Below, piece by piece: positions 43,865 through 51,321 of a stretch of 64,000 nt of DNA. The stretch's first letter is position 1. Every line of letters begins with the position of its first letter. The notes under the pieces are model-generated. The model was not told the origin of the DNA and made no database searches. It saw only the letters and a program-made list of their open reading frames with translations. Location: contig NZ_NKFP01000004.1 of NCBI RefSeq assembly GCF_002215035.1, positions 745,726 through 809,725 of the forward strand. The letters run 5' to 3'. Position numbers and translations under genes: made by a program. Source of the stretch: Leptolyngbya ohadii IS1 (GTDB lineage: Bacteria; Cyanobacteriota; Cyanobacteriia; Elainellales; Elainellaceae).

Positions 43865-45868
43865 CTATTCCCCCGCACTGGTGTCGATTTCGATCGCAAA
43901 ACTGCGGAGCATTCCCGTGTCCCGTGAGGCTTTGTCGGTAATTTCGAGCGTCCAGGTGCCTGCTGGATTTTTGCCAATCATGGCTTGCAGTGCAGGAATA
44001 TTCGCAGTGTCGTAGGTGCGCTTCAAATTATCTGTGCCGCCCCCAGCGCGATCGTGCAGGATGATCGGCTGTCCGTTCAGAGCCGCAGGCGGAACCAGCA
44101 TCACCACCAGATCACCAATGTAGGTATGCTCTACATCGATCGTCACCTGGATCGATCGAATGGGTGCCGGATTACCCACGGACAACGAGAGTCGGGCGGT
44201 CTGGAAGTCGCGAATTGGGATGTCCTGGGCAATGCGGTAGGTCTGTCGGGGATCTGGACTGCTGGGTAGGGCAAGTTCAACGGCTTTTCTTGCGTTTACT
44301 CGACCATAGCCATAGAAGGGGCTGCGTCCATTCGCGTCGTATTTGCCGCCTTCCGGATCGATGCGATCGCAGGACTGCCGCAGAATTTCGCGCACCTGAT
44401 CCCAGCGCAGATCGGGATTTCTTGCCAGAATCAGCGCCACCACGCCCGCTACACCGGGAGTTGAACTGGAGGTGCCGCCAAAGGCATTTGTATAGTTGCC
44501 CTGGCGATCGCCCTGGGTCGCATTCCCTGGGTTATAGCCCGCTGTACCACTGCGATCGGTTGTCCAGATGCCGGAGGTGAGGGAGGGTTCGCCGTCGTTG
44601 CTGGGGAAGGTACACCAGATTGCCTTACCAAAATCGCTGTAAACGCTGCGGACGCCCCGATCATTGGAGGCGGCTACTGCAATTACGTTTCGATAGCTGG
44701 CATAACCGTCGTTATCTACGCTTTCGTTGCCATTTCCTGCCGCAAACAGCACCACGCAGCCCTTGCCATTGCGTCCCTGGGTGACGGCATAGTCGATCGC
44801 CAGTCGAGTGGAGTCTGCGAGGGGAACTACCTGCTGGTGTAAGGGATCATTTGGGTCCCACCAGGCTCCATCGGGCGGACCCCAGCTACAGGAAATCACG
44901 TCTGCCCCGTTCTGTGCCGCCCACACAAAGGAATCGGCTTCTGCCTGCGATCGTAATCCGGATGCCAGACGAATCGGAATCAGCTTTGCTTCGGGAGCGA
45001 CCCCGGATGCCCCAAAATTCCCGTTGGCACAGGCAACCCCGGCACAGGCAGTCCCATGATCTTCTCCCCGCCCCGGACGCGGGTCATTGGTTTTGCGGGT
45101 GACATCCCTGGGCGCGACAATTTTGCCGGACGATCGAAATTCTTCATGATCGATGTCTACTCCATCGTCGATCACGGCAATAATGGCACCCGTCCCCCGG
45201 CTCAGTTCCCAGGCGGCTTCCACGTTGGCACTGGCATCAATGACGCGCCCGTTAATCGTTGTTTTTGCCAGATGCCACTGATCCGGAAAGACGCGCCGTG
45301 CTCTGGTATCGCTGACGAGTTCGGGATGGCAAAATTCCACAATGTCTTCTTGCAGCAACCGTTCTGCGATTTCAAAGGTCGCCAAGCCCGTCCCCTCAGG
45401 TGCCGCAACAAAATAGGCGTTGCGGGCATATTCAAGCGGACGTTTCACCGTCAGTCCGTACTGAGCAATCAGGGCTTCGCAGGCTTCCGGCAACTGGTCG
45501 TTGAAAAACTTAAGGAAGAAATTCTCGCTGTATAGTATGGGCGTTTGCGATGCGACATCCACCAGCACCCGTCCGGCAAATTCAATTTCCGGTTCAGCAT
45601 TCAGCATTTCGCGGGCAGCATCCCTGAGGGACGTATCCGGCTGCGGGGACTTGGCTTTTAATACTTCCACTCCGGCATGACGAAAGCGGGTGTTTAGCTC
45701 AAAGTTTTGGCTGAGCATCTGGTATGCCTGCTGAGACAGGGGGGCAATCTCAAACGATCGCCGACTCATCATGGCTGCCCGATTGACGGTACGAACAGCA
45801 ACATGATCCTGACTAATTTCAAACTCATACCTCCGCCCATTCTTGCCACCATACTGAACCCATACCAT
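43865..45868 (-). CDS. S8 subtilisin-like protease with P domain, PrcA-like
   Basis: 667 residues. Residues 1-195 are a prodomain-like region starting MVWVQYGGKNGRRYEFE. The catalytic domain has Asp (VIDDGVDIDHEE, about 235), His (GEDHGTACAGVA, 271) and Ser (FGGTSSSTPGVAG, 467), with Asn in LFAAGNGNES. The C-terminal P/homo B domain (about 545-667) contains HTYIGDLVVMLVPP and GTWTLEITD. The overall form resembles the Anabaena calcium-dependent protease PrcA. No signal peptide, so it is likely intracellular. A gene resembling its prodomain lies divergently at 46223. Confidence 0.9.
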   Translation of the reverse strand: MVWVQYGGKNGRRYEFEISQDHVAVRTVNRAAMMSRRSFEIAPLSQQAYQMLSQNFELNTRFRHAGVEVLKAKSPQPDTSLRDAAREMLNAEPEIEFAGRVLVDVASQTPILYSENFFLKFFNDQLPEACEALIAQYGLTVKRPLEYARNAYFVAAPEGTGLATFEIAERLLQEDIVEFCHPELVSDTRARRVFPDQWHLAKTTINGRVIDASANVEAAWELSRGTGAIIAVIDDGVDIDHEEFRSSGKIVAPRDVTRKTNDPRPGRGEDHGTACAGVACANGNFGASGVAPEAKLIPIRLASGLRSQAEADSFVWAAQNGADVISCSWGPPDGAWWDPNDPLHQQVVPLADSTRLAIDYAVTQGRNGKGCVVLFAAGNGNESVDNDGYASYRNVIAVAASNDRGVRSVYSDFGKAIWCTFPSNDGEPSLTSGIWTTDRSGTAGYNPGNATQGDRQGNYTNAFGGTSSSTPGVAGVVALILARNPDLRWDQVREILRQSCDRIDPEGGKYDANGRSPFYGYGRVNARKAVELALPSSPDPRQTYRIAQDIPIRDFQTARLSLSVGNPAPIRSIQVTIDVEHTYIGDLVVMLVPPAALNGQPIILHDRAGGGTDNLKRTYDTANIPALQAMIGKNPAGTWTLEITDKASRDTGMLRSFAIEIDTSAGE

Positions 45869-46222
45869 CGCAGTGTTCCTTCCTTCTTACCTTGTTGGGG
45901 GTTAACAGGTTATTAAATCGCTGTCGATTTGCGGTTGATTGCTTCTTTCGAGTTATAGCCCCGACCGCAGAGAAATCGGGTGAGCGTTGCTGAAAATTTA
46001 CATCGACTTGCCAGTATTCAGCTTCACTGAATGAACCATAGCGTTCCCAAGGGAGGCTTGCGTAAGGGGGAATGCCCCTGCTCTGATTCGGGTGTCGAGG
46101 CGACAAAGATAAACTTTCGGAAAGATGATTTTTGCAGGGGTTGCGTTAGGTTTAAGGAAAGGCGTCGGTTTTCAGGTTCGGTTTAGTGTCTGGTGTTCCT
46201 CTATTCAAAAAGCGAGTGTAGC
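45869..46222. promoter_or_regulatory. Divergent promoter region between the protease and prodomain-like genes
   Basis: About 350 bp with no internal gene. It must drive both directions. I see no clear shared operator. Confidence 0.4.
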
Positions 46223-46756
46223 GTGAGCGTTCCATTAGACTCTTTAGAGCAATTTCCGCAGCAGGTGCAGGTTCAGCGATCGATGGTTTATGTGCGGCAG
46301 TCCGACTATTTTGCGGTGCATTTGCAGGAGCCGTCCCAGACAAGCCCCGCCCGACTCGCCTCCGAAGCCGTTCTCACCCTGGAAGACCACATCGCCATCT
46401 TTCGGGGCAGTCCCGCCACCCATCGATCGATCGCTACCCAAGCCGAAGCGATCAGTGCCGTGTATGTCCTGGAACCGGGAGGATCGATCGCTGTCCCCAC
46501 CGGACAGGTCTTTTTGCGCTTTGCGGAAGGGGTTGCTGTGGAAACTCACCAAAACACGATTCAGCAGGCAGGCTATCAGGTAACGGAAATTGTCTTCTAC
46601 GCGCCGAATGCCGCCTGGCTCCGTCCCCTCTCCGGCGAAATTGCCGATGCTCTGCGCCTTCTTCCCCAACTGGAAGCGATCGACCCCGTGGAGGTGGTGG
46701 AACCGCAGATGGTGATGGGGCGATCGAAGCGGGAGCTTATGCAATCGGCAACGTAA
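46223..46756 (+). CDS. Stand-alone protein resembling the PrcA prodomain
   Basis: 177 residues from GTG 46223; ATG 46283 is possible. By eye it follows the protease N-terminal region. MVYVRQ resembles MVWVQY, DYFAVHL resembles DHVAVRT, and FLRFAEG resembles FLKFFND. FYAPNAAWLRPLSG resembles EYARNAYFVAAPEG, and VEVVEPQ resembles VEFCHPE. There is no catalytic domain. It could be a folding helper or inhibitor of the divergent S8 protease. The last 20 bp overlap the convergent histidine kinase gene. Confidence 0.72.
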   Translation: MSVPLDSLEQFPQQVQVQRSMVYVRQSDYFAVHLQEPSQTSPARLASEAVLTLEDHIAIFRGSPATHRSIATQAEAISAVYVLEPGGSIAVPTGQVFLRFAEGVAVETHQNTIQQAGYQVTEIVFYAPNAAWLRPLSGEIADALRLLPQLEAIDPVEVVEPQMVMGRSKRELMQSAT

Positions 46757-48899
46757 ACCAAAACACCGTCCCCTGCCCTAGCTCACTGTCTACGCCGATC
46801 GATCCTCCATGCGCTTCGATGATCTGGCGACAGAGATAGAGTCCGAGTCCGAGTCCGACGGATTTGGGTTTCTGGCTGCCGCGATAGTAGGGGTCGAAGA
46901 GGCGATCGCGCTGTTCGGGTTTGATGCCGATGCCGTTGTCGCCGACGGTGCAGTGAATCCAGGAGCTGCGAAGATCGGCGGTGAGGGTGATGGTGAGTCC
47001 GGGAGGGTTGTGCTTGAGGGCATTTGCCATCAGGTTTTGGTAGACTCGCGACAGCTGAAGCGGATCGGCTTTGATCGGGGGCAGATCGGCGGAAATGCGA
47101 TCGTCGAGAATGGTGCGTTCCTTTTCCAGCAGGGGATAGAGGTCGGACAGGGCGGAGTTGACCAGATCCCGCAGGGCGATCGGTTCTGGGTGGAGGGCGA
47201 TGCCCCAAATTTCGGCGGCGTGACTGTCGATCAGGGAGTTGATCAGTTCCAGCTGGCGCTGATTGCTTTCCTGCATCCGGCTCAGGATTTTGCGCGGCAG
47301 TTTCAGATCGTCTCCGGGCTGTTCGCTCAGGTTGTTCAGCACCATTGCGGTTCCCAGTACGGGATTGCGAAGATCGTGGGAAACGGCGTGGAGAAACAGG
47401 TTGAGCTGGCGGCGCAGTTCGGCTTCCAGGGATTCAAGCTGCTCGTTCTTTTGTTCTAATCCCTGCGAGTATTCTGCAAGCTGCTGGTGGGACTGCTTCA
47501 ACTGCTGCCGCATATGGTTAAACGCCTGTGCCAGCGTCCCCAATTCACCCGATCGCTTCACATCTACCTCCCGATCCCAATCTCCCTCTGCCAATGCTTC
47601 AGCGGCACGGCTCAGCTCCAGAATCGGACGGGCAATCCACTGACTGGTAGCAATTCCCAGGGCGATCGCCAGCAGCAGCGCAACCAGGCACAGCAAAATC
47701 GTAATCCGCGTATTGGCGTTAATTTTCGCCATGAATTCCTCTTCGGGAATGACCACGACGACAAGCCATTCCAAGCCCCGGAATCCGCCCCGCCGCTGCG
47801 AGACCCCTCCCCCTCCGGGATAATCGACGCCTGGAAAGGGCTGGACTTTCACAAATCGCCGCCTGCCGTTCTCATGAAACTCAAACTCTTGAGGGCGGGA
47901 AATATTCGCCAGTTTGCCGTACTGCTGCTTGAGAAAATTGGCAGTGATGCGGGTGAGTCTATCCTGGCTGTTCTGAACGTCGATCGGCTTCTTCGTCTCC
48001 CCTTCCAGTCGAAAAGGTTTCTCTCCGGTTGAGGTGGCAATCAGATTTCCGTTGGGTTCTACGATGAAAATTTGCCCGGTTTCGCCCACCTTAAGGTCAC
48101 AGAGAAATTGCCCAATTCCTGCCAGGCTCAGGGTGGCATCGGCGACGCCCAGCAGATTTCCCCGGCGATCGGAGAAGGGGCGATCGGCTGAAATTACAGG
48201 CGCATTATCCGTAACGGTGTAGTAGGGGTCAATCCACAGCAGCGAACCTGCATCGACTGCCCGCTGATACCAGGGACGCAAACGCGGATCGTAATCCGGT
48301 ATGGTGTTGACGACCTGTGTCCGCCTTCCCCACTCATTCACTGTCCAGACCCGCAGATTTTTGTCTTTGCTCACATCGCGAACTGCCATCTCAAGCTGAT
48401 TGTTCGCGTTATAGCCAATGTCGATATAGTTGCCCTTTTCTGTGCCAATCGAAATAAAGGTGAGTCCGCTGCGCTGTGCCACGGTTCCCTCCGATCGCAG
48501 ACACCGCTGGTCAGCCAGAGCAACCGTGTTGAAGGGCTGATTGCTAAACTGCTGAAACTGCTCCCACAGATAGGGTTCCAGGCTCGTAATGTCATCGATA
48601 TTCAGCAAGCCCAGCCGCACATTGTCCGCATTCATCTCGGTGACAATCTGGGGAATCCGCAGGTATGCCTCCAGGGTTTGTTTAGTGCGATCGCTCGCCT
48701 CCCGCTCTAGCTGGCTGACCAGATCCCGCACCGCATCCTGCCCGTTGCGATAGGACAAATAGCCCGTCACGCCAACGATCGCCACAATTTGCAGCAAAAA
48801 CGGAATGATCAGGATGACCCGCAGCGGTACCCGTCTGGATAGGCTGGCAAGGGGTTTCAGGACAGTACGACGAAGCGACGAACGCATAAATAGGTTCAC
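46737..48899 (-). CDS. Membrane sensor histidine kinase (Cache-HAMP-HisKA-HATPase)
   Basis: 720 residues. TM1 at about 27-49 is followed by an extracytoplasmic dCache-type domain (about 55-385, with RLRPWYQRAVDAGSLLW and GVADATLSL). TM2 at about 395-420 (ITILLCLVALLLAIALGIA) is followed by HAMP (IARPILELSRAAEALAEGDW) and a coiled coil. The H box is LHAVSHDLRNPVLG, the N box NLMANALKHNP, G1 DNGIGI and G2 GLGLGLYL. It should sense a small ligand outside the cytoplasmic membrane. No response regulator gene is adjacent. Confidence 0.93.
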   Translation of the reverse strand: MNLFMRSSLRRTVLKPLASLSRRVPLRVILIIPFLLQIVAIVGVTGYLSYRNGQDAVRDLVSQLEREASDRTKQTLEAYLRIPQIVTEMNADNVRLGLLNIDDITSLEPYLWEQFQQFSNQPFNTVALADQRCLRSEGTVAQRSGLTFISIGTEKGNYIDIGYNANNQLEMAVRDVSKDKNLRVWTVNEWGRRTQVVNTIPDYDPRLRPWYQRAVDAGSLLWIDPYYTVTDNAPVISADRPFSDRRGNLLGVADATLSLAGIGQFLCDLKVGETGQIFIVEPNGNLIATSTGEKPFRLEGETKKPIDVQNSQDRLTRITANFLKQQYGKLANISRPQEFEFHENGRRRFVKVQPFPGVDYPGGGGVSQRRGGFRGLEWLVVVVIPEEEFMAKINANTRITILLCLVALLLAIALGIATSQWIARPILELSRAAEALAEGDWDREVDVKRSGELGTLAQAFNHMRQQLKQSHQQLAEYSQGLEQKNEQLESLEAELRRQLNLFLHAVSHDLRNPVLGTAMVLNNLSEQPGDDLKLPRKILSRMQESNQRQLELINSLIDSHAAEIWGIALHPEPIALRDLVNSALSDLYPLLEKERTILDDRISADLPPIKADPLQLSRVYQNLMANALKHNPPGLTITLTADLRSSWIHCTVGDNGIGIKPEQRDRLFDPYYRGSQKPKSVGLGLGLYLCRQIIEAHGGSIGVDSELGQGTVFWFTLPIA

Positions 48900-49817: not shown

Positions 49818-50493
49818 CCCTGCAATTGACCCTAATTCTTTACTGCGCGGACTGCTGATAGGCTTCTCGATCGCCGCCCCCGTGGGACCGATCGGCATCC
49901 TCAGTATCCGGCGCACCCTCACCGACGGTTTACTCATGGGTATCCTTACCGGACTGGGTGCAGCCACCGCAGACGCAATTTATGGCGGCATCGCCGGATT
50001 TGGACTCACCGCGATTTCCAACGTGCTGATTCAGCAGGGCTTTTGGCTCAGGGTTTTGGGCGGTCTATTTCTCTGCTATTTGGGTATCCGGATCTTTTTC
50101 AGCAAACCAATCTTCCCATCTCCCTCAGATGAGCCTGCGGAAAACCAGAAGCGATCGCTCCGCGCAGCCGCCTTCGGCGGATCGATCAAAACTCTCATGG
50201 GAGCTTATAGCTCAACCGTATTCCTCACCCTCACCAATCCCGCCACTATTCTCTCCTTTACCGCCGTCTTTGCCGGATTGGGACTCGCCAATAGCCGCAA
50301 TAGCTATACAGAGGCGATCGTTTTGGTGCTGGGCGTATTCCTTGGCTCTGCCCTGTGGTGGCTGCTGCTCTGCGGCTCCGTCAGCCTGTTTCGGATACGC
50401 CTGAACGCCAAAACTCTGCGCTGGCTGAATCGAATTTCCGGTCTAGTCCTCCTAACCTTTGGCATAATTGCTCTGAGCTTACGGTCGCAATAA
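49810..50493 (+). CDS. LysE/RhtB-type amino acid exporter
   Basis: 227 residues with six hydrophobic segments and the family motif GFSIAAPVGPIGILSIRR (residues about 16-33). It probably exports a basic or neutral amino acid across the cytoplasmic membrane under the control of the overlapping Lrp-type gene. The last 211 bp are duplicated in inverted orientation immediately downstream (50503-50718). Confidence 0.92.
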   Translation: MLSPAIDPNSLLRGLLIGFSIAAPVGPIGILSIRRTLTDGLLMGILTGLGAATADAIYGGIAGFGLTAISNVLIQQGFWLRVLGGLFLCYLGIRIFFSKPIFPSPSDEPAENQKRSLRAAAFGGSIKTLMGAYSSTVFLTLTNPATILSFTAVFAGLGLANSRNSYTEAIVLVLGVFLGSALWWLLLCGSVSLFRIRLNAKTLRWLNRISGLVLLTFGIIALSLRSQ

Positions 50494-50718
50494 GGGGGCG
50501 CACCCCCTTATTGCGACCGTAAGCTCAGAGCAATTATGCCAAAGGTTAGGAGGACTAGACCGGAAATTCGATTCAGCCAGCGCAGAGTTTTGGCGTTCAG
50601 GCGTATCCGAAACAGGCTGACGGAGCCGCAGAGCAGCAGCCACCACAGGGCAGAGCCAAGGAATACGCCCAGCACCAAAACGATCGCCTCTGTATAGCTA
50701 TTGCGGCTATTGGCGAGT
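50283..50718. repeat. Perfect inverted repeat, 216-bp arms, 4-bp spacer
   Basis: 50283-50498 and 50503-50718 are reverse complements around the spacer CGCA, with GGGGG/CCCCC at the centre. The right arm re-creates the 3' end of the LysE-type gene on the minus strand, then joins M23 sequence within GT-ACCAATCCG, where both sources share CCAATCCG. Confidence 0.95.
50508..50718 (-). pseudogene. Inverted copy of the LysE exporter 3' end
   Basis: Encodes the last 70 residues of the exporter (from LANSRNSYTEAIV to the stop) identically on the minus strand, without a start. It belongs to the inverted repeat and is not an independent gene. Confidence 0.9.
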
Positions 50719-51321
50719 ACCAATCCGATCGCACGGCACTGGCAGAACTCCAGAAAGCAGCAATGGCGATCGAACGGCAGCGGCGACAGGTAGAAGGTCA
50801 GCGCAACCAAGTCGCTCTCTTAACGCAGGAACTCCAGGCACAAAAGACAGAGTATCAGGCGCAGGCAGCCTCCCAGCAGGAACTCATCAACCGACTGCGG
50901 CAGGATCGACAGGCACTCGAAGCGGCAGAGGAACAGCTTGCCAAAGCCGAGAAAGGCTACCAGGGCAAACAGTCGGCAACGGTGGCACGGCTCAAATTTT
51001 TGCAGCGGCAGCAGGGAAGCCGGGGCTGGGCACTCTTGCTGGACAGCGAGAATTTGAATGAGTTTCTCGATCGGCGCTATCAGCTTCAGCGGGTGTACCA
51101 ATCCGATCGCACGGCACTGGCAGAACTCCAGAAAGCAGCAATGGCGATCGAACGGCAGCGGCGACAGGTAGAAGGTCAGCGCAACCAAGTCGCTCTCTTA
51201 ACGCAGGAACTCCAGGCACAAAAGACAGAGTATCAGGCGCAGGCAGCCTCCCAGCAGGAACTCATCAACCGACTGCGGCAGGATCGACAGGCACTCGAAG
51301 CGGCAGAGGAACAGCTTGCCA
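50717..51321 (+). repeat. Direct repeat of 227 bp at a 378-bp offset inside the M23 gene
   Basis: 50717-50943 equals 51095-51321. The offset is 378 bp = 126 codons, so the reading frame is kept. The copies end differently: the first continues KAEKGYQG, the second RDSRNLAIL. Confidence 0.95.

Follow-up and report, generated by a model that had tools for sequence, protein, structure and literature searches.

What does a cyanobacterium do with a gene that looks like a protease prodomain without its protease, kept beside the very protease that it resembles? The question is raised by a window of 64,000 nucleotides (nt; the whole stretch of DNA that was analysed) from Leptolyngbya ohadii IS1 (GCF_002215035.1, NZ_NKFP01000004.1, positions 745,726-809,725 of the forward strand). 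In this window the gene for a PrcA-type, kexin-like S8 protease stands divergent to a gene for a protein of 177 amino acids (aa), hereafter the small protein, which an initial annotation had taken to be the prodomain alone. Judged from sequence profiles, the divergent protease has a prodomain to which the small protein is homologous in its C-terminal half. We consider it likely that the small protein serves the neighbouring protease as a dedicated prodomain in trans and inhibits it via a product-like basic tail. What carries this reading is the homology, the register of the basic tail, the conserved catalytic and S1 residues of the protease and the strict divergent linkage of the two genes.

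The Pfam search of the small protein returned zero families at E <= 1, and so no match to Inhibitor_I9 (PF05922) was seen either. The absence of a protease domain, as initially proposed, was thus borne out over all 177 aa. NCBIfam gave one match with E 0.14, which is far below the cut-off of that model, and a single-sequence search of the PDB found nothing useful. When the small protein was compared to the protease by BLASTP, the best alignment had E 0.17 and fell on the catalytic domain. As the pairwise comparison came out empty, the letter motifs cited in the initial annotation prove little by themselves.

Relatives of both proteins were collected and the profiles were then compared by hhalign. 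With 8 small proteins against 7 protease N-termini the profile-profile comparison gave E 3.4e-5, and with 18 small proteins against 25 proteases it gave E 4.7e-7 and a score of 50.0 over 86 ungapped columns. As controls for this score, 20 column shuffles gave nothing above 18.3, and 4 segments of the remaining protease nothing above 12.8. For the C-terminal domains alone we obtained E 2.2e-9 and a score of 50.6 over 80 ungapped columns (at most 17.2 in 100 shuffles). The N-terminal halves scored 15.8, and 50 shuffles gave scores of up to 17.1; because the halves do no better than shuffles, we rejected the idea that the two N-terminal regions are similar over their full length. Of the likeness that had been proposed over most of the length of the small protein, residues ~86-171 of 177 therefore hold up and the N-terminal half does not.

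A hidden Markov model (HMM) of the small family alone picked up 9 long open reading frames (ORFs) of 584-722 aa in 9 genomes; six of these were read and 6/6 belong to the same protease subfamily. In the reverse direction, the protease profile found the small gene itself in genome G135 (E 6.2e-4). The small proteins form one clade (100/99) separate from the protease prodomains, and across 18 pairs their distances track those of the partner prodomain (r 0.90) and of the catalytic part (r 0.83), with 0/5000 permutations giving correlations as high. The clade and the tracking distances are consistent with an old duplication of the prodomain that was retained beside the protease.

Basic tail, catalytic pocket and structure models

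Without any guidance the profile alignment sets GRSKR of the small protein, followed by E, on DTRAR of the protease prodomain, followed by R. The position +10 from a conserved (E/H)P is Lys or Arg in 25/25 small proteins and 32/32 proteases, at a background Lys plus Arg content of 7.6% in the small proteins and 11.2% in the proteases. The C-terminus was looked at in 25 of the 53 genomes with the small gene; G078, in which the gene is split between two frames, and G101, in which it lies at a contig edge, were excluded from this count and from alignment A3. The chain ends on the register Lys/Arg in 16/25 small proteins and continues for 1-7 residues in 9/25, among them the window protein with seven (ELMQSAT after GRSKR). 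On the protease side the register residue is the last basic residue ahead of the catalytic part and presumably marks P1 of the autoprocessing site (Arg191 in the window).

The nearest solved relatives of the protease in the PDB are kexin (E 5.2e-35), furin and the Aeromonas sobria protease ASP (3hjr, E 2.4e-22). In the alignment to Kex2 the triad D234/H271/S467 and the oxyanion N379 are intact, and D333 and D387 occupy the places of D277 and D325, the aspartates that line the S1 pocket of Kex2. Both residues are invariant in 25 aligned proteases. With the acidic S1 residues kept, the pocket of the protease should take Lys or Arg at P1. The protease thus has the features of kexins and convertases, namely the triad, the oxyanion Asn, the acidic S1 pocket and the P-domain. 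Like PrcA of Anabaena it is a kexin-like subtilase with a P-domain, and the label 'PrcA-like' that it had been given fits, as the Nostocaceae members of the subfamily that were read have 662 aa, which we take to be the length of PrcA. PrcA is calcium-dependent and cleaves in a trypsin-like manner; a 1991 paper is said to concern the Anabaena enzyme, and the protease has reportedly been studied since about 1990.

AlphaFold2 modelled the small protein with a mean predicted local distance difference test (pLDDT) of 87.8 and a predicted template modelling score (pTM) of 0.82, and the order of elements was examined at residues 88-166. Residues 1-205 of the protease were modelled with a pLDDT of 86.1, the final 17 residues being below 50. 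In Foldseek the prodomain of the proprotein convertase PC1/3, ORF2 (the partner protein of ASP) and subtilisin propeptides were matched at probability 1.00, all with E above 1e-3. VIA-align scored the model of the small protein at Z 6.5 with the PC1/3 prodomain (9fie_B, 9fic) and at Z 6.2 with ORF2 (root-mean-square deviation, rmsd, 5.0 over 94 residues). For the protease prodomain the best match was PC1/3 (9fic) with Z 10.1. The closest bacterial match was ORF2 (Z 9.0, with rmsd 2.3 over 92 residues and 23% identity), and POIA1 (1v5i) scored Z 7.5. A Z under 8 may reflect a common arrangement of elements, and the claim of homology therefore rests on the sequence profiles.

Linkage and distribution of the pair

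In the class survey of 388 genomes we found the small gene in 20 and the protease subfamily in 25. The respective numbers were 35 and 39 for the 192 genomes of family f32, 5 and 5 for the 151 genomes of family f2, and 6 and 6 for the 6 genomes of family f11. The threshold for the protease was E below 1e-50 in the class survey, where the next weaker match in the list has 9.3e-13 and is the second piece of G078, and E <= 1e-15 in the family surveys. Joined together, the surveys hold 53 distinct genomes with the small gene, and in 53/53 the protease subfamily is encoded on the same contig in divergent orientation. The idea of a free-standing prodomain thus survived the survey as it had survived the profile comparison: no genome was found to have the small gene but no S8 protease. 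A further 46 genomes of the class survey have weaker protease matches (other S8 proteases or unread), and the HMM of the small family found no small gene in them.

The two genes are within 1.5 kb of each other in 50/53 genomes and 5.0, 7.7 and 8.2 kb apart in the other three. The pair spans the GTDB families f1, f2, f11 and f32, with most of the 53 genomes from two Nostocaceae genera, and hence the counts are not independent. Fisher tests of co-occurrence gave 2.8e-34 (192 genomes) and 1.6e-9 (151 genomes); these tests take no account of phylogeny, and we do not treat them as proof. Beyond the small gene, on the side away from the protease, the neighbouring genes vary between loci, so the protease and the small gene form the conserved unit. 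In G544 (L127:2438-5021) both members are broken, the protease being split into ORFs of 327 and 314 aa and the small gene truncated to 94 aa. The gene of a Cache histidine kinase next to the small gene had been suggested as part of a regulated-proteolysis module. Among the 23 loci whose flank reaches 1.5 kb or more, it adjoins the small gene in only three (the window and those of G001 and G006), and we rejected it as a part of the unit.

A scan of genome contigs for relatives yielded one locus (FACHB-502 relative). With a Nostocaceae member as query, no relatives were found in plasmid records, and of 18 pattern matches in viral contigs none was confirmed. G045, whose main protease copy has the small gene, has a second protease gene from this subfamily, with a shorter product (595 aa, L099:621-2408) and no small gene within the 10 kb read. 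The loci L129-L137 hold other cyanobacterial S8 proteases with weak prodomain similarity, several of them with signal-peptide-like N-termini; no small gene was seen in eight of these nine loci, those from genomes without the pair. Arrays of clustered regularly interspaced short palindromic repeats (CRISPR) were encountered at two loci: in G014 (L098:7630-15400) 94 copies of a 36-nt repeat lie between the still-divergent protease and small gene, and in G390 (L110:10039-12700) a CRISPR-type array of about 40 copies of a 37-nt repeat lies ~1 kb downstream of the protease gene. Part of the insert between the pair in G542 resembles an IS607-type element by eye.

Inhibitor, foldase or anchor

The pair is real and strictly linked, and stand-alone regulators of the propeptide type are already known; the difference from ORF2 and ASP is in the gene order and the retained cis prodomain. 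As in these regulators, the small protein combines homology to a propeptide with the lack of a protease domain, though in its C-terminal domain only. We regard ORF2 and ASP (PDB 3wqb) as an analogue, with a product-like basic tail at the active site of a kexin-like protease. According to PMC5638518, the C-terminal Lys of ORF2 reaches the catalytic centre of ASP, and ORF2 inhibits ASP with a half-maximal inhibitory concentration (IC50) of 84.3 nM; the ORF2 homologues named there are from gammaproteobacteria and Chromobacterium, not from cyanobacteria. ASP is without a propeptide, going by the title of a cited 2015 paper. Like orf2, the small gene adjoins the gene for a kexin-like S8 protease with a P-domain, and its product ends in a basic residue or has one at the register; its fold may be propeptide-like too, ORF2 being among the fold matches of the models of both the small protein and the protease prodomain. 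Unlike ASP, this protease carries its own prodomain, and whereas orf2 lies just downstream of asp, the small gene is divergent.

SUB1-ProM of Plasmodium is described in PMC6993865 as encoded beside subtilase genes and as a potent inhibitor of a subtilase that retains its own propeptide; its tail has a variable length and does not fill the groove. SUB1-ProM and TgMIC5 of Toxoplasma resemble the small protein as free-standing propeptide-like proteins, but they are from eukaryotic parasites and pair with other subtilases, whereas here the position of the basic tail is invariant in the 25 members examined. POIA1, the yeast proteinase B inhibitor and Arabidopsis SPI-1, which we take to be members of MEROPS family I9, are likewise single propeptide-fold proteins; they are eukaryotic, and the small protein differs from them by its missing Pfam I9 match. 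The prodomains of proprotein convertases (PC1/3, furin) share the fold match and the basic residue at the processing site. They act in cis as a part of the proenzyme, whereas the small protein is made from its own gene. The convertase inhibitors 7B2 and proSAAS act in trans and are not known to come from a prodomain gene. In bacterial subtilases the inhibitor is as a rule present in cis. In the literature searched, which covered few subscription papers, we found no description of such a partner of a PrcA protease.

We infer binding, inhibition, trimming of the tail and co-regulation as follows. The small protein would fold like a subtilase propeptide and dock on the catalytic domain as a propeptide would. 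Its C-terminal tail would lie in the substrate groove like the product of a completed cleavage, the terminal Arg or Lys being seated in the acidic S1 pocket, and the mature protease would be inhibited. Where further residues follow the basic one, as the seven in the window protein, the protease may trim the tail itself.

Several observations weigh against such an inhibitor. No Foldseek match reaches E 1e-3, so the fold matches are moderate, and by E-value tandem RNA-recognition motif (RRM) proteins such as NONO, which have the same common fold, rank above the propeptides. In VIA-align the top matches of the small-protein model are pro-subtilisins (pro-subtilisin E with Z 7.7), a level that the tool calls common. 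By sequence, the profile of the small family found neither a propeptide nor ORF2 (3wqb_B) in the PDB, only two chance hits. The protease keeps its own prodomain, and 8/61 genomes keep the protease without the small gene (G005, G030, G118, G177, G333, G555, G394 with a 101-aa fragment, and G422 with a contig edge), which means that the protease can do without the small gene. The compartments also disagree in part: a strongly hydrophobic N-terminal segment was seen in 6/24 small proteins, two of them with a lipobox-like motif, and no signal peptide was seen by eye at the N-termini of the protease subfamily (no signal-peptide program was run).

Some of the same observations bear on whether the small protein is mainly an external foldase, that is, an intermolecular chaperone needed by the protease alone or along with its own prodomain, with inhibition as a side effect. 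ORF2 acts in this manner on ASP while also inhibiting it (PMC5638518), and it is ORF2 that the protease prodomain matches best among bacterial folds. However, ASP has no propeptide, whereas the protease studied here has one that is conserved in 25/25 aligned sequences. At least six genomes (the first six named above) have an apparently intact protease and no small gene, and in G553 an intact protease adjoins a small gene in pieces. We think this role unlikely and favour an inhibitor over an obligatory foldase, because the protease has a cis prodomain and several genomes have kept the protease but not the small gene.

The hydrophobic N-termini could also point to an anchor or sorting factor that catches the protease at the membrane or outside the cell, with the prodomain fold as a docking surface only. 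The exoproteome of Anabaena PCC 7120 lists both the calcium-dependent protease Alr1381 and All1380, a protein encoded divergent to it and classed as 'no similarity' (PMC4390845). All1380 is probably the PCC 7120 member of the small family; the order prcA then fut genes, sought for the PCC 7120 copy, was absent among 9 loci of one Nostocaceae genus. Lysis or vesicles may explain the exoproteome listing, and in 18 of the 24 small proteins, the window protein included, the same measure shows no strongly hydrophobic N-terminus. We regard an anchor as very unlikely. Least probable of all, and hardly to be expected, is a leftover or repurposed duplicate of the prodomain that has no dealings with the protease and owes its linkage to inherited synteny. 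The pair is inherited vertically within families, so the 53 genomes include many that do not count as independent. Yet the divergent order is kept in all of them, even across inserts of 5-8 kb such as the array in G014, while other neighbours change; the basic tail is retained in 25/25 and the small proteins form one clade over four GTDB families.

A wider scheme can be put forward, tentatively and with more doubt than confidence. PrcA-type proteases would have a cis prodomain that is cut on maturation and a trans one that is born cut at P1 and serves as a standing product-type inhibitor. Trans copies with an export or lipid-anchor segment would be kept outside the cytosol, with the protease locked in one compartment and free in another, and All1380 would be the trans copy of PrcA (Alr1381). 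A conserved, separately transcribed second prodomain would offer a testable handle on the control of the best-known P-domain protease of cyanobacteria, and if All1380 is the Anabaena member the question could be tested in a standard laboratory strain.

Coordinates and further features of the window

Table 1. Positions of the protease gene, the small gene and their parts in the window.
Feature	Position	Strand	Basis
Kexin-like S8 protease of PrcA kind, 667 aa	43865..45868	-	PF00082 E 2.6e-45, PF01483 E 2.2e-15
Protease regions: prodomain region residues 1-~191, S8 catalytic domain 225-522, P-domain 571-660	within 43865..45868	-	
Second domain of the protease's own prodomain (residues 108-191, up to the putative P1 Arg191)	45296..45547	-	fold matches; basic register position
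Intergenic region between the divergent genes, 354 bp (324 bp with the earlier GTG)	45869..46222	.	coordinates
Free-standing prodomain-like protein, 177 aa (187 aa from GTG 46193)	46223..46756	+	prodomain homology, linkage
Prodomain-homologous domain of the small protein, residues 86-171, ending in GRSKR	46478..46735	+	hhalign, model, propeptide matches

The ORF positions agree with the initial coordinates of both genes. For the small ORF there are two possible GTG starts, giving 46193-46756 or 46223-46756 (+), and we prefer the second as the probable start because the homologue in G006 begins at a matching ATG. Both promoters are presumably within the divergent intergenic region; the corresponding gaps measure 56-706 bp at 22 other intact divergent loci. 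At its other end the small gene runs 20 bp into the end of the histidine-kinase gene (46737-48899), which is convergent to it.

Elsewhere in the window, positions 50274-51321 hold a perfect inverted repeat of 225 nt (50274-50498 and 50503-50727, with 4 nt between) and an adjoining perfect direct repeat of 227 nt (50717-50943 and 51095-51321). The repeats cut into the end of a LysE-like gene and into an M23-peptidase-like gene, and the corresponding ORF has 434 aa in the relative G001 compared to 338 aa in the window. Either a recent rearrangement or a fault in the assembly may lie behind the repeats.
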